From: Anaerolineae bacterium | GTDB lineage: Bacteria > Chloroflexota > Anaerolineae > Aggregatilineales > Phototrophicaceae | Assembly (NCBI GenBank): GCA_022843745.1 | Contig: JALHNB010000047.1 | Span: forward strand, 1 to 55,099 | Direction: 5' to 3' | Length of the DNA stretch: 55,099 nt | Shown: piece after piece, positions 26,425 to 36,738 of the stretch | How the letters are laid out: each line of letters starts with the position of its first letter | How positions within the stretch are numbered: the first letter of the stretch is position 1 | Notes under the pieces: generated by a model | Database searches by the model: none | What the model was told of the DNA's origin: nothing | What the model saw: the letters and a program-made list of their open reading frames with translations, nothing else | Program-made: the position numbers and the translations under genes

Positions 26425-26829
26425 TTAGCGGGCAACAAACTCACTGACGCATGCCTTTAGTTCCTGCAAGATGCCTTCCGAACGGTACGGCTTGGTGATG
26501 TAGCCATCAAAGCCCGCCAATTTGCCGCGTTCGATATCCTTCGGCATGGACAAAGCCGTGAGCGCGATGATCGGCACATTATCCAGGTATGGCCGGGCGC
26601 GAAGCTGTTTCTGTAGCTCCCAGCCGTTGATAACAGGCATCGCCAGGTCGAGCAAAATGAGATTTGGCTCAAGGGCCTCTACAGTCTCTAACACTTTTGT
26701 CGAGTCCGTCATGCCGATCACGGTGGCCTGTCGCGATTCCAACACGAGCGTAATCAGCTTCAGATTGTCAGCTTTGTCCTCGACGATGAGGACGCGCCAG
26801 CTTGAAATATCGGAAGTTAAACCTGTCAT
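26425..26829 (-). CDS. single-domain response regulator
   Basis: This 134-residue protein has only a receiver domain. The phosphorylation site is Asp in LILLDLAMPVINGWE (about residue 59). An acidic pair stands in LIVEDKADN (about 15-16), then Thr in IIALTALSM and Lys in YITKPYR complete the receiver core. There is no output domain, so it signals by protein contact, probably in a relay with the five-PAS kinase whose gene ends 160 bases upstream on the same strand. CAGGATT lies just before the ATG. The first five codons are repeated upstream (26923-26940) as a mini-frame MTGLT-stop. Confidence 0.9.
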   Translation of the reverse strand: MTGLTSDISSWRVLIVEDKADNLKLITLVLESRQATVIGMTDSTKVLETVEALEPNLILLDLAMPVINGWELQKQLRARPYLDNVPIIALTALSMPKDIERGKLAGFDGYITKPYRSEGILQELKACVSEFVAR

Positions 26830-26989: not shown

Positions 26990-29900
26990 TCATTCGGCAA
27001 TAAGCGGCAGATGGATCGTAAACGTGCTGCCTTTTTCGACTTCACTTTCCACTGCAATGCTGCCACCCATTAATGTAACCAACCGTTGAACAATTGCCAG
27101 ACCCAATCCAGTCCCTTCATAGCGGCGAGTGGATGAGTTATCAACCTGGCGGAACTGCTCAAAGACATAACCTAACGCTTCTGCTGGGATGCCGATGCCC
27201 GTGTCACGGACGATAATCATCCAGCAGCTATCATCCAGTTTCATTATATTCACATCCACCTGGCCCACAGAAGTGAACTTAATGCCATTACCAACAAGAT
27301 TAATAAGGATTTGCTTCAGACGCATTTCATCGCCAAGGAGTCTCCTCGGCAGGGCAGGATCCAGAAAAGTGACCAGCTTCAGACCCTTCTGGTCAGCGAG
27401 GTTTTGGAAATTCCGCTGAATATCTTCAATCATTGCGCAGAGGTTGACATTCGTGTTGCGCAGCTCAAACTGCCCCGCTTCTATCTTCGAGATGTCGAGG
27501 AGGGTGTTGATGAGCGCCAGGAGGTGTTCGCCGTTGCTCAGAATAATATTGATATACTCGCGCTGAGGGTCGTTCAGGTTGCCAGTCAGGTTATTCAACA
27601 TAGCATCGGAAAATCCGATAATGGCGTTGAGGGGTGTGCGTAATTCGTGCGACATGGTCGCCAGAAATTCGCTTTTCAGGCGATTGGCTTCTTCGGCGCG
27701 TTTGCGAGCCTCGTCCAGTTCCTGCTCAAACTGTTTGCGCAGGGTGACATCGCGGATCGCGCTGGCTATCAGTGATTGCCCATCCGTCTCAATGGGACTC
27801 AGGCTGATCTCGACGGGAAAGGTCGTGCCATCCTTGCGGGTCGCATGCAAGTCCTTCCCGCTGCCCATTGTGCGTGCGTGTGAGAATTCGACATACTCCT
27901 GGCGATGCTGAACGTGCGTGGACTGAAGCATTTCGGGAATCAGCACTTCAACTGTTTTGCCGATCAAATCCGCCTTCGAATAGCCAAATATCTGCTCGGT
28001 CTGGGTGTTGATAAGCGTGATGCGGCCTTCGGTATCGGTGATAATCATCGGGTCGGGCGCGGATTCCAGAAGTGCGCGAAACAGATTTTCTACCTGCTTA
28101 CGTTCGGTCAGATCAGTAACTACCGAAAACGAGCCAATGATCTGCCCGTCTTTGAGGCGCGGTGTGCCGGTAATCAAGGCATGAACCATGCGTCCATCCG
28201 GCTGCCGGAAGCGGGTTTCATAGGTCGAAGTTTCACCGATCTGTCTGCGGCTGCGCGCTTCAAGTAGTGTTTGGTGGTCTTCGGGTATCGTCACGTCCAT
28301 CGGTGATTTGCCAATGATTTCTTCCTGGGGACGACCAACGATGCGGGCATAGGCCGGGTTGACATATTCAAAGCGCCCCTCGGCATTCACGACGGTCACA
28401 CCTTGTCCAAGCGCGTTCATCACCTGCTGGGCAAAATCGCGCTGCTGCTGAAGTTCATGCTCGATACGTTTGCGCTCACCGATGTCCTGAACGCCAATAT
28501 AAACGCGAATCACTCTCTGATGTGTTTCGTCCCATTCGGGTCGTCCATAGCTGCGCAGCCAGCGGACTTCGCCGCGGGTGTTGATAATCCGAAATTCGCT
28601 GATGTCATCTTGGCCGGAGCGCAGCTTTTTGTGGCGTGCCCTGAAAATGTCCTGATCGTCCGGGTGGACAGGCATACTCAGTTGAAAATCCTTGTGAGCA
28701 TCTTCAAGCCTGTGGCCCGTAATTTCCTCAAACGCGCCGACGACCCATTCAAGCTGTGCCTCGTCGTCCGAAATGTAGCGATAGGAGCAGGCATAGTCCC
28801 AAAGCACGCTGGAGAGGTTGCGGTAGCGTTCCTCACTTAATCGCAGCGCTTCTTCGGCACGTTTGCGTTTGGTAATATCACGGTTGACCGCGACAACGCC
28901 CACAGGATTACCCCATTCGTCGTGAAAAAGTATGATGGAGCCAAAAACGTGAATCAGGCTGCCATCTTTCCGCTGCTGAACGACTTCACCAGTCCAGTGA
29001 CCCTGTTCCTGGAACTCGCGGATAACCTGTTCTCTGGTGTTTTGCGTGTCGTACATTGTGTTCAGAATCGCGGCGGTTGACTGGCCGATGACTTCTTCAG
29101 AGCGCCAGCCGTAGATGTTTTCAGCCGCTTTGTTCCAGCTCTGAATATTAAAGTTGAGGTCGGTGGCAATGACGGCATCCGTTACGGCCTCCTGGAGGCT
29201 GGCATGGAAACGAAGCTGGCGCTCACGTTCCATGCTTTCGGTCAGGTCACGCGCGACTTTGGAATAGCCCACAAGGACGTTGTTTTCGTCGCGTATGGCG
29301 GTAATGACGATGCTGCCCCAGAAGCGCGACCCATCCTTGCGCACCCGCCAGCCTTCACCGACAAAGTGACCGTCGCGTTCGGCGATCTGCAAAATGCGCT
29401 GAGGCTCGCCCCTCATGATGTCTTCGGGCGTATAAAAACGGCTGAAATTCTGACCGATAATTTCCTGCGCCGTATAGCCTTTGAGATTTTCCGCGCCGGG
29501 ATTCCAACTGACAATATTGCCGCTGCGATCCAGCATGAAAATCGCGTAATCCCGCACACTGTTCACCAGCAGCCGCAGCGTCCGTTCGCTGACTTCCAAC
29601 GCCACATTCGTCTGTTCGAGTTCGATGGTGCGGGCTTGGACACGCTGTTCGAGTTCGTCGTGTGCCTGACGCAGCGCTTCCATGGCCTGGCTTCGCTGGC
29701 TGTCGATCAGGTTCAGCGAACAAGCAAACCAGAAAATGAGGCCCCCAAACAACACGGCGTTCGCCAGGGCGACTATCACCATCCCAAATTCCGCTTCAAA
29801 AAGCCCTGTTTGCTGAATTTGAAGGCGCAGCCAGGCGATGAGCAGCGGCGCGAAAATCGCGATGGGCAGCAAGCGCCTCGCTAGCAGGCCGCCCGCGTGA

Positions 29901-30547
29901 TCGGACAGGATGACCGCCGCCGGGCCGCGCTCCATATCGGCAAAAAAAACGCCTGCGCAGAGGATAATAAATGTGACGGCAGTCAGCACGGCAATTGTGG
30001 ACTGGGCGTTCATCTGATAAAGCGAGTCCACGCCGTAGATATAGCCCGCCAGCGCCGAAAGTGCCAGCAGCCCGGCGAAGAGCGCGAGTGCCTGTGCCAG
30101 CGCAACATATCTGGATCGCGTGATGAGGATCAGGCTGCTGCCGATAAAGCAAAAATTCAGCGCAGTCACGAACGCCATCCGGCCAGGAAGGTTTGTGGAA
30201 GTTGGCGTTAACACATCCTCGATCAACAATTGGTCGATGCCCAGATTCCAGCCAAACCCATATTCGACCAGCGTCAATAAACCAACCGCAACGACCATTA
30301 CGCTGAACACGTGGGCAAGGCGAGGTCGGCTGCGCCACAGGATCAACGCGCTGCCTGTCAGCACGAAGCACAGGGCCGCATTGAATTTCATCGTCACCGG
30401 GCTAGGCAGGATATTTCTCAGGGGCAGAATATTCAATATCCAGCTTAGAATCACCAGACTGCCGATGGCGATAACGATGATACCTGCCAGGTGCGAAACG
30501 GTTCGCATTCGGACTACCCGACCCGCATGAGATGACTCTGCGCTCAT
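26990..30547 (-). CDS. large membrane sensor histidine kinase with five PAS domains
   Basis: This 1185-residue kinase combines about eight membrane helices (residues 1-285), a coiled-coil segment, five PAS domains (starting roughly at 322, 445, 579, 709 and 826), a HisKA helix pair with MSHELRTPLNAIIGF (His about 966) and a HATPase with the N box, DTGIGI and GTGLGLAI. The PAS domains with WNPGAENLKGY-type sequences often bind haem, flavin or small ligands. The membrane part contains MKFNAALCF, FGWNLGIDQL, GGLLARR and is shared with the kinase at 44332-47844. It has no extra receiver domain, so the single-domain regulator downstream is its likely partner. Confidence 0.92.
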   Translation of the reverse strand: MSAESSHAGRVVRMRTVSHLAGIIVIAIGSLVILSWILNILPLRNILPSPVTMKFNAALCFVLTGSALILWRSRPRLAHVFSVMVVAVGLLTLVEYGFGWNLGIDQLLIEDVLTPTSTNLPGRMAFVTALNFCFIGSSLILITRSRYVALAQALALFAGLLALSALAGYIYGVDSLYQMNAQSTIAVLTAVTFIILCAGVFFADMERGPAAVILSDHAGGLLARRLLPIAIFAPLLIAWLRLQIQQTGLFEAEFGMVIVALANAVLFGGLIFWFACSLNLIDSQRSQAMEALRQAHDELEQRVQARTIELEQTNVALEVSERTLRLLVNSVRDYAIFMLDRSGNIVSWNPGAENLKGYTAQEIIGQNFSRFYTPEDIMRGEPQRILQIAERDGHFVGEGWRVRKDGSRFWGSIVITAIRDENNVLVGYSKVARDLTESMERERQLRFHASLQEAVTDAVIATDLNFNIQSWNKAAENIYGWRSEEVIGQSTAAILNTMYDTQNTREQVIREFQEQGHWTGEVVQQRKDGSLIHVFGSIILFHDEWGNPVGVVAVNRDITKRKRAEEALRLSEERYRNLSSVLWDYACSYRYISDDEAQLEWVVGAFEEITGHRLEDAHKDFQLSMPVHPDDQDIFRARHKKLRSGQDDISEFRIINTRGEVRWLRSYGRPEWDETHQRVIRVYIGVQDIGERKRIEHELQQQRDFAQQVMNALGQGVTVVNAEGRFEYVNPAYARIVGRPQEEIIGKSPMDVTIPEDHQTLLEARSRRQIGETSTYETRFRQPDGRMVHALITGTPRLKDGQIIGSFSVVTDLTERKQVENLFRALLESAPDPMIITDTEGRITLINTQTEQIFGYSKADLIGKTVEVLIPEMLQSTHVQHRQEYVEFSHARTMGSGKDLHATRKDGTTFPVEISLSPIETDGQSLIASAIRDVTLRKQFEQELDEARKRAEEANRLKSEFLATMSHELRTPLNAIIGFSDAMLNNLTGNLNDPQREYINIILSNGEHLLALINTLLDISKIEAGQFELRNTNVNLCAMIEDIQRNFQNLADQKGLKLVTFLDPALPRRLLGDEMRLKQILINLVGNGIKFTSVGQVDVNIMKLDDSCWMIIVRDTGIGIPAEALGYVFEQFRQVDNSSTRRYEGTGLGLAIVQRLVTLMGGSIAVESEVEKGSTFTIHLPLIAE

Positions 30548-30603: not shown

Positions 30604-30831
30604 TAATCCCGCTGCCTTCATGCTGAATCGCGCCAGCGTTTTCACGGCAGCATTTACTTAAATTTCAATAAGGGTGACAAAGCGCATGTCGAGGATAGCT
30701 ACTTGCCGGAAAGCTATGCGCGTCTGCTCGATCTGAAGGCGAAATACGATCCGGAAAATCTACTCCACTTCAGCGATCCGCTGTCCGCTTGTGAAATAAA
30801 ATCGCTGCTTCAGCGATCCGCTTGCGAATAA
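30604..30831 (+). pseudogene. C-terminal remnant of a berberine-bridge-type FAD-linked oxidase
   Basis: The plus-strand frame (ends TAA at 30829-30831) reads HGSIYLNF...EDSYLPESYARLLDLKAKY followed by DPENLLHF. This is the usual C-terminal signature of BBE-type FAD oxidases (YxNF...Y...YxRLxxxKxxYDPxNxF). A stop codon precedes the frame, and the FAD domain is absent. The tail carries a 15-base direct repeat (CTTCAGCGATCCGCT) at 30768-30782 and 30808-30822. It is a fragment left from an earlier gene. Confidence 0.7.
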
Positions 30832-30838
30832 CGATCTC

Positions 30839-32461
30839 CTATTGCGGGGGTGGTGCCACGTGACCTTGCCACGTTTTCGGGTACGCTGTCCACGCCCATC
30901 GAACCAGACAAAAAATAGTCACGGTAGCCAGGACACCGACAAGTATGACTTGAAAGTTCTGGCTTCGATTAGGGTCGCGAAAATCGAGCAACTGGTTTCC
31001 CCAGGATGGGGTTGGAGGCCGGACACCAAAACCGAGCATACTCAGGCTGATTTCCAGCGTCAGCATGGTGGCGGTTGCGAGTGTAAAAACAGGCAGACTT
31101 GTCCGCAGCCATAAACGCGGGCTGCCATCCTGCATGGATTCGAGCGCTGCTTGCGACCCGCGTAAAACGGAAGGCCAGCCGAATATAACCAGCGCGATGA
31201 TCCATGTATAGGGAGCGAAACCGGATGCTATTACAGCCACAATAGCCAATGTCGGGATTGAACTCACAACGAGGGTGAACGTATCAAGGATCAGTGAACC
31301 GATCTTTGGAAATCGTCCGGCAAATGTGGCTGCAAGAAACGCAATGAAGGTGGTGGTTGCGCCAGCCACAGCGCCAATCATCAGCGAGGTTTGTGTGGCC
31401 AGGAGCAAGCGCGCAAGCTGGTCACGGCCTATGAAATCGGTGCCAAGCAGATGACCTGCCGTGCCGGGTGGCAGAAAGCGGTCTTCCATATTAGTATCGT
31501 TCGGATCGACACGCAGCACGTACCTGTTAATGATCGGCGCGGTCATTGCCAAGACAATGACGATTAACAGGAACGCAAGCGCTGGGCGAAAGCGTCGTAT
31601 TGGCTCAATCACCACATTTTTGGCAGGTATTTCCTGTTTGATGGGCGTATGAGCCATCATAGAAGGATTTTTTCGCGAGGCGATCCAGGCCGTCGTCAGT
31701 AAATGGGTTGAGTAGACGATGATGCCCATGAATAAAAGTAGAGATGAGATAGAAAACCAATCCTGTATCAGTATCGAATCGATGAACATATTTCCGACCC
31801 CGCGCCACGAGAAAATCGCTTCGACAAGCGCCAGATTACCTAAGAAAGCTGCGACGACAGCCGCCGGGGTATTCAGCCCAAGCCTGCGCTGGCGTGAAAA
31901 TTGATGCCAATGTAAATAAGTTCCGACAGTGGGAATTGCCAGAGCGAGGCTGGGCATGACCAGATAGACCAATCTTTGGAAAATCGGCATTCCTGGTTCA
32001 GCGTCTTGAGGGGCGCGGCCTGACAGGGGTAGGAGGTGTAATAACATACCGAAGATGAGGATGAGCAGGACGCTCAAGAAGGCAGCAGGCATCGCGGCGC
32101 ACAAACTCTCGATGACCCTGATAGGCCAGCGGGCAATGAGTCGACTGAGTACCCAGACCAGCAGCAGTGCCGCCACTACCAGCTCAATCGTCGCGGGTAG
32201 CTTGGAAAGGATGGCCTCGGACACGTTAAGGTCGCGTATGAACGATATGCCCTGGATCATGTGCGTCATCCAGTGTATGTATTGTGCAGGAATAGGCTGC
32301 TTGAATGCGTAGGTTGCTTCCCGCATTTCATATATTTCCCGAAGTTGATCGCCAGATAGGAAATCGGCAATGATCAGCCCTTTAGGCAGTAGAATCACGC
32401 TAAAAATCGCGACGAAGCTGATGCCGAACATCACCATAGCGGCATGTATCAGACGGATCAT
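30839..32461 (-). CDS. fused DppB/DppC-like peptide-type ABC permease with both EAA loops missing
   Basis: This 540-residue polypeptide joins a DppB/OppB-like half (about 1-275; SGRAPQ, IFSWRGVGNMFIDSILIQDW) to a DppC/OppC-like half (about 290-540; HLLGTDFIGRDQLARLLLAT, LSMLGFGVRPPTPSWGNQLL). The two halves are usually separate proteins. Compared with recalled E. coli DppB and DppC, the segments before FSWRGVG and SMLGFG are about 30 and 19 residues shorter, so the EAA loops that dock on the ATPase are missing from both. No ATPase or solute-binding gene lies next to it. It may be a decayed transporter, or a membrane protein with a changed role; an intact frame of this length argues against simple decay. 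Confidence 0.75.
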   Translation of the reverse strand: MIRLIHAAMVMFGISFVAIFSVILLPKGLIIADFLSGDQLREIYEMREATYAFKQPIPAQYIHWMTHMIQGISFIRDLNVSEAILSKLPATIELVVAALLLVWVLSRLIARWPIRVIESLCAAMPAAFLSVLLILIFGMLLHLLPLSGRAPQDAEPGMPIFQRLVYLVMPSLALAIPTVGTYLHWHQFSRQRRLGLNTPAAVVAAFLGNLALVEAIFSWRGVGNMFIDSILIQDWFSISSLLLFMGIIVYSTHLLTTAWIASRKNPSMMAHTPIKQEIPAKNVVIEPIRRFRPALAFLLIVIVLAMTAPIINRYVLRVDPNDTNMEDRFLPPGTAGHLLGTDFIGRDQLARLLLATQTSLMIGAVAGATTTFIAFLAATFAGRFPKIGSLILDTFTLVVSSIPTLAIVAVIASGFAPYTWIIALVIFGWPSVLRGSQAALESMQDGSPRLWLRTSLPVFTLATATMLTLEISLSMLGFGVRPPTPSWGNQLLDFRDPNRSQNFQVILVGVLATVTIFCLVRWAWTAYPKTWQGHVAPPPQ

Positions 32462-32842
32462 AGGGATAAGCTTTCTGTAAATTTATCATTCAACAGCTAT
32501 AACCATAACAAGCTCTCTGCAAACCCATCATTTAATAGCTATAACGATAATAGTTCGGGAAAATATAAGCGTCAAATTTAAAAGGCTGAATTTGAAATCA
32601 ATGACTCTGAAAATAAACGGATTCCTGAATTACGCGACTCCCGGCGCACACATGGACTGCGCGGCGTTTGCAACAGTCTGGTTAAGAGGATGGACATACG
32701 GTGTGGCGTGCGCTGCCGAAGATGATGGCGGGCGGGTGAGATTAAGGAGAAACATTATGTGTGACGGAAGCAGGGAATATTAGCGCGAATGTGGCGGTAG
32801 GGAAAGGGACACGGCAGCGCCATGCCCCTACAAATCAGCTAA
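32462..32842. other. intergenic stretch: tandem 42-bp duplication, no recognised gene
   Basis: After the duplication (32468-32551), the region holds a 63-codon ATG frame (32592-32783) without a ribosome-binding site and of odd composition. I do not call this a gene. A degenerate P1 palindrome lies at 32797-32831. Confidence 0.45.
32468..32551. repeat. tandem duplication, two units of 42 bp
   Basis: Units 32468-32509 and 32510-32551 match in about 35 of 42 positions, with conserved AAGCT.TCTG.AAA and AGCTATAAC.ATAA. They stand immediately upstream of the permease gene (start 32461, minus strand) and could be a repeated operator or leader. Confidence 0.6.
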
Positions 32843-35466: not shown

Positions 35467-36738
35467 TTAGCGGAGCGCGTCTTCCAGGCCGATGATCATT
35501 TCATCGACGGCTTCTTCGACGCTGTAATCGCCGACGAGAATCTTCTGGAACGCAGGCAGCGCGACTTCGCCAGCCCAGCCGGGAGCGCCAACAAAGGCGA
35601 CAGGCTTGCGGCCAACGGCGACAGCATCCAGCGCGGCGGCGTAAATCGGGTTGCCGGTGATGCGTTCGTCATTGACGACAGCTTCCGTAACCGGGAAGTA
35701 GCCAGTTTCTTCCAGGAACGCAATCGCCGGGTCGTTTTCGCCCCAGAAGCTGATCCAGGCGAAGGCGGCATCGGCGTTGTCTTCTTTCATCAGGCCGTTG
35801 TAGAGATAGCTGACGCGGGATATGTGTTCAACCGGGCCAGCGGGCTTGACGGCTGTTCCGAACTGGACACCGGGTTCGAGCGCGGCGCTGATTTCGACCA
35901 GTGAACCAGTGTGATGCCAGATCATCGCGGTTTGCCCGGTTTTGAAGCTGGTCATAATCTGGCTGTAGCTGTCTTCTGGTGCGCTTGGCTGGACAACGCC
36001 ATCAGTGGTGTAGAGGCCAGACCAGAACGCCATCGCTTCAATCGCTTTGTCGCGGTCAATGGCAGCGTTGCCGTCTGCGTCGATGATGGGCGAGCCGAAG
36101 GATTCGAGCATGTCGATGATGAAGCCTTGACCACCCGCACCGCCGCGCATCGCGAAACCATAGCGGCCTTCGTCGGGGTTGGTGAGGGCGATAGCGGCAT
36201 CGCGGAATTCTGCGAAGGTCGTCGGGACGGCGATTCCGGCTTCGTCGAACCAGTCCTTGCGATAATACATCCAATCGACAAAGGTGAAGGCCGGGATGCC
36301 GTAGATTTTGCCGTCAACGGTGACAGATTCCATACGATTGTCCGGGAAAAATTCTTTCAGTTCCCAGTTGTTGATGCGCTCGGTGAGGTCAACCACACCG
36401 CCCATTGCCAGCATATCCGGCAGGCGATCCGCCGCGATCATGGTGGTGTCGGGACGGGTATCGGCCTGCACCGCGAGCGTGAATTTCGCCATAAAATCGG
36501 CGTTGGGGATATTTTCCTGGACGAGTTCAACGCCAGGATATTTTTCCTTGAACATGGCGATGACGCGCTCCATGCCCTTGAACTCGCTCTCGCTGGTGAA
36601 GTGATGCCAGTAATTAACCGTGCCGCTGAGGTCTTGTGCGGCTGCGAAGGCCATCGGCAGGCCGTTCGCCAGCGCCATCCCTGCGCCACTCATCGCGGCG
36701 GCTTTGAGGAAATCGCGGCGTGACATTCCGTTTTTCAT
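35467..36738 (-). CDS. Tat-exported extracellular solute-binding protein (family 1)
   Basis: This 423-residue sugar-type binding protein is exported folded by the Tat system: the N-terminus has SRRDFLKAAAMSGAGMALAN, with the twin Arg and the FLK that follows. After the signal, GTVNYWHHFTSESEFKGMER and YPGVELVQENIPNADFMAKF are typical of family 1, with GIPAFTFVDWMYYRKDW in the middle. AGGAGA lies before the ATG. It has no permease or ATPase next to it, as with the binding protein at 238, and differs in sequence from it. The ligand is unknown, although a sugar or oligosaccharide is likely. Confidence 0.9.
   Translation of the reverse strand: MKNGMSRRDFLKAAAMSGAGMALANGLPMAFAAAQDLSGTVNYWHHFTSESEFKGMERVIAMFKEKYPGVELVQENIPNADFMAKFTLAVQADTRPDTTMIAADRLPDMLAMGGVVDLTERINNWELKEFFPDNRMESVTVDGKIYGIPAFTFVDWMYYRKDWFDEAGIAVPTTFAEFRDAAIALTNPDEGRYGFAMRGGAGGQGFIIDMLESFGSPIIDADGNAAIDRDKAIEAMAFWSGLYTTDGVVQPSAPEDSYSQIMTSFKTGQTAMIWHHTGSLVEISAALEPGVQFGTAVKPAGPVEHISRVSYLYNGLMKEDNADAAFAWISFWGENDPAIAFLEETGYFPVTEAVVNDERITGNPIYAAALDAVAVGRKPVAFVGAPGWAGEVALPAFQKILVGDYSVEEAVDEMIIGLEDALR

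Follow-up and report, generated by a model that had tools for sequence, protein, structure and literature searches.

The permeases DppB/DppC and OppB/OppC of the type I peptide ABC importers (E. coli DppBCDF, 8z1v-8z1z; M. tuberculosis OppABCD, 8j5q-t, and DppABCD, 8wd9-b) are the best matches by sequence to the protein described here and also match its structure model. In E. coli DppB and DppC, the TM1-TM2 and TM3-TM4 regions are periplasmic and the coupling helix, which joins TM4 and TM5, is cytoplasmic (excerpts of PMC12136057). As far as those excerpts go, each of the published TMD-NBD contacts runs via the coupling helix, and the DppC residues F239, L240, and L259 contribute to closure of the periplasmic gate (PMC12136057).

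Fused permeases are already known, as shown by FbpB of the T. thermophilus FbpBC system, which carries both halves in one chain and serves an importer with the ATPase FbpC. FbpB retains its EAA loops. A precedent for an ABC-importer membrane component acting free of an ATPase is the solitary BioY, an S-component that reportedly works without its ATP module, according to the title of a paper from 2013 cited in PMC4820897; BioY presumably differs from the present protein in fold and family. Among the paper titles and abstract openings surveyed, we found none describing a Dpp permease that has been eroded on its inner face.

The window that we analyzed is a stretch of 55,099 nucleotides from an Anaerolineae bacterium (GCA_022843745.1, contig JALHNB010000047.1, positions 1 to 55,099). 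The fused protein that it encodes shares with the Dpp/Opp permeases a B half followed by a C half, each of six helices, as well as the outer-face motifs of the C half. Unlike those permeases, it is one chain in which the EAA loops are cut in both halves and the cytoplasmic conserved residues are mostly gone, and unlike the Dpp/Opp systems, and FbpB with its FbpC, it has no ATPase gene nearby, nor is there a nearby gene for a Dpp-type binding protein.

One open frame carries both permease halves

The original prediction had described a fused DppB-DppC permease with a frame intact over 540 codons. This was borne out in that we found a single ORF, on the minus strand (the strand had not been given), in which residues 1 to ~266 align with DppB-type permeases and ~267 to 540 with DppC-type permeases and in which the two end landmarks that had been named, IFSWRGVG and LSMLGFGVRPPTPSWG, are both present. 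The features of the gene are as follows.

30839..32461, minus strand: fused DppB-DppC-like permease, 540 aa, ATG start, internal stop absent
31664..32461, minus strand: B half, residues 1-266, DppB-like by alignment; 13/23 periplasmic and 4/27 cytoplasmic conserved residues kept
31592..31678, minus strand: fusion joint, about residues 262-290; most relatives have a stop codon here and two genes
30839..31663, minus strand: C half, residues 267-540 plus the stop, DppC-like; 20/21 periplasmic and 4/17 cytoplasmic conserved residues kept
31856..31897, minus strand: B-half coupling-region remnant, residues 189-202, SRQRRLGLNTPAAV; about 11 residues missing inside it and 19 after it relative to intact DppB
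31091..31102, minus strand: C-half coupling-region remnant, residues 454-457; deletions of about 12 residues near SLP and about 8 directly after
31403..31456, minus strand: retained motif on the C-half outer face, GHLLGTDFIGRDQLARLL, residues 336-353, from the alignment and conservation counts
30983..31036, minus strand: retained TM5-TM6 loop on the C-half outer face, LGFGVRPPTPSWGNQLLD, residues 476-493, from the alignment and conservation counts

Homology to the Dpp/Opp permeases was evident from the NCBIfam models Opp4C (E 1.1e-26) and Opp2B (E 5.2e-22), with the B-type models covering mainly residues 3 to ~184 and the C-type models starting from ~295, although every one of the 25 models listed scored far below its own cut-off. 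The same was true of Pfam, where PF00528 scored 13.4 bits (cut-off 26.4) and PF19300 scored 17.7 (cut-off 23.8). Judged by its sequence, the protein is a descendant of Dpp/Opp permeases. Because it falls short of the family cut-offs and lacks a recognizable coupling loop (see below), we do not class it as a working ABC permease. Like FbpB-type permeases, it has two six-helix halves in a single chain, given the 540-aa frame and the helices of both halves in the structure model.

Within its own genome (7.96 Mb, 117 contigs), the top identity was 41 percent, to a DppC-type gene over residues 293-519, thus within the C half only, and no close orthologue was found in the searches made. In most relatives, B and C are distinct consecutive genes that often share a reading frame and are parted by a stop, the loss of which would be a simple route to the fusion.

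The coupling loop is lost from both halves

It had been predicted that about 30 and 19 residues were missing at the coupling loops, and our counts agree closely: 11 + 19 = 30 residues in the B half and 12 + 8 = 20 in the C half. The TM4-TM5 region measures 20 residues in each half of the window protein, against 39-40 in the 99 B rows and 34 in 113/113 C rows of the family alignment, and in neither half is the EAA motif, which marks the coupling loop of Dpp/Opp and FbpB-type permeases, recognizable. The edges of the gaps at the B-half remnant vary with the alignment, and two alignments placed the gaps at the C-half remnant differently. Among the smaller losses are 7-8 residues in or after TM2 and 3-4 before TM3 in the B half, and 6 residues before TM1 and 6 at the C-terminal GDG motif in the C half. 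A regular expression for the EAA motif, which left 65 ORFs unmatched, was discarded because the pattern was too strict.

Conserved residues are lost along one side of the membrane

Sidedness labels were taken from the six-helix topology of E. coli DppB/DppC, with the boundaries drawn by eye on one reference pair (L014). In a wide set of 99 B and 113 C rows, with columns conserved at 70 percent and defined on family rows without the fused proteins, the window protein kept 8/44 cytoplasmic, 24/53 membrane, and 33/44 periplasmic conserved residues. The difference between the cytoplasmic and periplasmic counts was significant (Fisher 1.4e-7; 2.4e-4 when only aligned positions were used), and none of the family rows was as lopsided as the window protein (0/99 B, 0/113 C). 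The C half alone kept 20/21 outer but only 4/17 inner conserved residues, so that the conserved periplasmic segments of DppC are retained. An earlier run had returned one B row in 100 that was as lopsided, and this row (L070) was dropped because it is out of frame from its middle on. This row derives from a Bosea record (Root381; L070:2875-3774), in which the DppB gene combines a mid-gene loss of frame with an ambiguous base, either a sequencing error or a broken gene.

The same picture emerged from a set of 12 pairs with columns conserved at 80 percent, in which 10/59 cytoplasmic, 31/91 membrane, and 42/69 periplasmic residues were kept (cytoplasmic versus periplasmic, Fisher 3.6e-7; 3.7e-5 without the deleted positions). 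A distant intact pair from the same genome (L012) served as a control and kept 48/66 cytoplasmic, 52/105 membrane, and 46/80 periplasmic residues; the asymmetry was also absent from the three further control pairs shown on this set. An ordinary pair from the same genome with similarly long branches (L011) was not lopsided either (differences of -0.13 and -0.07). With the coupling loops left out altogether, the asymmetry persisted at conservation thresholds of 0.6, 0.7, and 0.8 (P = 0.00065, 0.0002, and 0.0001 with gaps and 0.04, 0.005, and 0.0007 on aligned positions only) and was weaker at 0.9, a threshold that leaves few columns (P = 0.02 with gaps and 0.17 on aligned positions only).

The cytoplasmic segments of the window protein carry 18 K+R and 5 D+E, and the outside segments carry 15 K+R and 19 D+E; this charge bias, as read from the predicted segments, fits the usual membrane orientation. 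DppC residues F239 and L240 align to about residues 475-476 of the window protein, which is the start of the kept outer loop.

A second fused protein occurs in another genus

The search for homologues that the original prediction had called for was successful in part. We found, and confirmed by blastp, a fused DppB-DppC protein of 623 aa from the same family but another genus (L134; G005:C31:2238-4106), the locus matching the window protein with an E value of 6.7e-24 and no stop over query residues 200-523. Its coupling regions are both shortened, to 30 (B) and 16 (C) residues against 39-40 and 34 in the family, and a similar form thus exists in a second genome, but its B loop is only partly lost. 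The second protein keeps 14/44 cytoplasmic, 25/53 membrane, and 30/44 periplasmic conserved residues (Fisher 0.0013; aligned positions only, 0.036). All 99 B rows are less lopsided than its B half and 111/113 C rows less so than its C half, the other two C rows being as lopsided. GTDEIGRD and QPPTPSWGN are retained in its C half. Its B half passes the PF00528 cut-off (34.3 against 26.4), showing that it is less eroded than the window protein.

At 27 percent identity, the two fused proteins are no closer to each other than to ordinary permeases. They join in the C-half tree (support, 82.5), with the warning that long branches may be meeting there, and do not join in the B-half tree, in which a single clade is not rejected (p-AU 0.43). 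Judged from these trees and identities, the window protein and the second protein are related only distantly, and the latter may be an independent case. Its gene lies behind a prmC-like gene on the same strand with a gap of ~60 bp (L134:316-3107), in surroundings that include a transglutaminase-like gene, two membrane proteins (one a weak PMT_2 match), an Exo_endo_phos-type nuclease, and a class V aminotransferase, and no ABC ATPase was found among the 6 other ORFs scanned there. The two proteins are therefore alike in their B-then-C fusion, short coupling regions, less well kept inner face, and want of a neighboring ATPase among the ORFs scanned, and unlike in that the second has prmC-like and transglutaminase-like neighbors, a partial B coupling region, and a B half above the Pfam cut-off. 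With a loop-shortened fusion present in a second genus as well, a single accident is a less probable origin.

A profile of both fused proteins, searched against 154 genomes of the order with the best 8 candidates scored per genome, gave no third stop-free B-C frame among the matches listed, nor a fused frame in a genome of the same genus as that of the second protein (G025). When 20 suspect loci were examined by blastp, only the second protein was truly fused, the other long frames being separate B and C genes or out-of-frame extensions. Exact peptides found no relative in the species collection; conserved patterns confirmed 504 relatives there, 80 of which were retained. A screen for fused ORFs flagged two (L040, L050), which are both the window itself, and none among 220 others. 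Among 2,040 plasmid records searched by tblastn, the sole record with at least 80 percent coverage holds two genes with a stop between them. We also noted DppC-type genes of 518-556 aa, where ~310 aa is usual, in four genomes of one family (L135-L138); each has a separate B gene beside it, and they are an extended or inserted form of DppC.

Neighborhood and possible partners

The prediction that no ATPase lies nearby held: Pfam found neither an ABC ATPase domain nor a Dpp-type binding protein (SBP_bac_5) in 42 window ORFs. These took in 41 of the 59 ORFs that reach 150 aa, as well as a shorter one (134 aa); all 18 of the rest overlap scanned ORFs. There is thus no cluster-encoded ATPase or binding protein, and both types exist elsewhere in the genome, which has 36 SBP_bac_5 matches (two of them short) and 24 OppD/F-type ATPase tails. 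With no Dpp-type binding protein in the window and many in the genome, a range of partners is conceivable. Three binding proteins (C1:352446, C7:131340, and C39:44317) have no permease within 4 kb among the best 150 of 223 candidates, and we regard them as candidate partners, a lead and no more. Two of the SBP_bac_5 matches (C1:352446-353876 and C18:75176-76621) have profile positions 1-52 downstream of positions 62-365 on the same strand and may be permuted, doubled, or neighboring genes.

Several neighbors of the fused gene deserve mention.

26990-30547, minus strand: 1185-aa histidine kinase containing several PAS domains, immediately downstream of the permease and co-oriented with it, gap of 291 bp
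26425-26829: lone response-regulator receiver after the PAS kinase
30676-30783, plus strand: short remnant DKAHVEDSYLPESYARLLDLKAKYDPENLLHFSDPL, a gene relic in the gap that separates permease and PAS kinase
238-1527 and 35467-36738, minus strand: two SBP_bac_1-type solute-binding proteins, the second with a TAT signal

By its position, the PAS histidine kinase is a possible partner of the fused permease. The DKAHVEDSYLPESYARLLDLKAKYDPENLLHFSDPL remnant, which we take to resemble the C terminus of FAD-linked oxidases, is weakly matched by two long frames of contig C15 in its own genome, at 55 and 52 percent across ~22 residues. The SBP_bac_1-type pair may be orphan binding proteins; neither an ABC ATPase nor an ordinary permease occurs in the scanned window ORFs. 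The neighboring dienelactone hydrolase has a close match in 41/154 genomes, and of ten short loci, only the window's own places the permease or the CDGSH gene next to the hydrolase. The stretch 32462-32842 has no second copy in its own genome, no tandem repeat was found upstream of the fused gene, and promoter-like matches were at the level of chance (4 observed, 2.8 expected).

Structure model

An AlphaFold2 model built on 13 rows had a mean pLDDT of 65.0 and a pTM of 0.70, a confidence at which a channel, a closed bundle, and a receptor are indistinguishable. Its C half superposed on E. coli DppC (8z1x_B) with Z 21.4 and an rmsd of 3.2 over 244 aligned residues, and the whole chain superposed on FbpB (9j4r_A; 15 percent identity) with Z 19.3 and an rmsd of 3.6 over 367 aligned residues within 16-530. 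Since ordinary permeases fed the model, its likeness to DppC is not independent and means compatibility only.

Signs of constraint on a heavily eroded gene

On the 12 pairs, the window protein retains 83/175 aligned conserved residues, with 44 more positions deleted, and its end branches, at 3.75 (C) and 8.53 (B), exceed the respective medians of 0.35 and 0.32. However, the ordinary pair L011 also has long end branches (6.23 and 5.54), showing that long branches alone say little about decay. We simulated neutral decay by substitutions only, in 600 runs (200 from each of three pairs), to a retention of 54 percent, a target derived from an earlier count of 78/152 scaled to a typical member. None of the 600 runs was stop-free at that retention, the mean number of stops being 8.3-9.9. 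The simulation presumes that the extra divergence follows loss of function, and it would miss a gene whose divergence took place under selection and whose death is recent.

Hydropathy of the TM stretches, in columns chosen by hydropathy, was 2.07 for the window protein, ~1.3 after neutral decay, and 1.73-2.06 in the 12 pairs; in columns set by topology on the wide set, the values were an ordinary 1.83 and 1.75, against family means of 1.85 and 1.86. TM hydropathy is therefore preserved, not raised. The notion that the TM stretches are more hydrophobic than those of all relatives, which came from the 12 pairs (2.07 versus at most 2.06), was rejected because it did not hold on the wide alignment. 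A coding pattern is also kept in the GC content by codon position (56/44/58 percent; flanking noncoding DNA, 46 percent), and the codon score of 0.02 is above that of random synonymous coding (-0.13) and below those of 9/10 other window genes. Where a pseudogene should show a lost frame and a uniform loss of constraint, the frame here is open and the loss is nonuniform.

What the fused protein may be

The original prediction that an ABC permease has been converted to a role free of ATP is supported in part, fitting the docking loop lost from both halves, the lack of an ATPase nearby, and the selective loss of the cytoplasmic face, of which the loop loss is a part and which suits a protein no longer coupling to ATP; the protein as a whole is heavily eroded. 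Tentatively, and short of an even chance, we favor a constrained, ATP-independent membrane protein that keeps the outer, binding-protein-facing side of a Dpp permease, with a function that we infer. Under this proposal, a DppB-DppC gene pair would have been joined into one frame, both halves would have lost their coupling loops and most of the remaining cytoplasmic face, and selection would have maintained the hydrophobic bundle together with the outer face, that of the DppC half in particular. The fused protein would be made and inserted in the membrane in the usual orientation, as family topology and the charge bias suggest, and would still offer its periplasmic docking and gate surface to an oligopeptide-type binding protein whose gene lies at another locus of the genome. 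With the ATPase contact presumably absent, docking would not drive transport, and the protein would probably be a docking place for a Dpp-type binding protein, free of ATP and of transport, acting as an ATP-independent receptor, anchor, or competitor for that binding protein.

Next in order comes the possibility, which we consider unlikely, that a duplicated DppBC pair lost its function and is decaying in a frame that is open by chance. The strong overall erosion and long branches, the scores below the Pfam permease-family cut-off, and the oxidase-like C-terminal remnant (30676-30783) adjoining the gene all speak for decay, and a gene long under constraint may have lost its function only recently. 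Yet no neutral run remained stop-free, the frame has stayed open despite several separate losses, 20/21 outer residues of the C half were kept while the inner ones vanished, and another genus has its own open fused frame, likewise with short coupling regions. A passive facilitator, ranked after decay and likewise improbable, would have the bundle conduct a solute, released by a binding protein or alone. Retention of the outer gate loop of the C half would suit it, as would the example of BioY, albeit from another family, but the membrane residues, which include the path-forming helices, are kept less well (31/91) than the outer face (42/69), an objection softened by the intact L012 pair, which shows the same order more weakly (52/105 and 46/80). 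Polar residues, moreover, make up 1.8 percent of the hydropathy-chosen TM columns, against 2.7-7.0 percent in the others.

It is far less probable that the protein is still an ABC permease whose ATPase is coupled via a diverged contact. Such an ATPase could be supplied in trans by one of those with the 24 OppD/F-type tails, and the second fused protein keeps part of its B coupling region; against this, both coupling helices are lost, 8/44 cytoplasmic conserved positions are all that is kept, and the published TMD-NBD interactions all go via the coupling helix in the excerpted account (PMC12136057). Least credible of all is an artefact of assembly or sequencing, a chimera or collapsed reads. 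The genome is indeed a draft in 117 contigs with an estimated contamination of 4.04 percent, but separate losses, a fusion, and substitutions throughout one open frame exceed what any single misjoin could produce, the genome holds no close parent sequence (top identity, 41 percent), and a similar protein is present in an independent genome.

Implications

Enzymes that are dead but retain a binding face, such as pseudokinases, are well known. If our favored reading is true, a dead ABC permease with its motor side erased and its outer side kept would be the transporter counterpart of such pseudoenzymes; the docking surface for a binding protein would be useful without transport, and the protein would provide a natural test of the outer face alone. 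Even if these were merely decaying genes, they would still be unusual in having lost residues mainly from a single membrane face. More doubtful, but conceivable, is the wider reading that peptide-importer permeases have become ATP-free membrane receptors, perhaps repeatedly in one family, through selection that removed the motor side and kept the side facing the binding protein. In that event, soluble binding proteins might report to, or be held at, the membrane by a "dead" permease.
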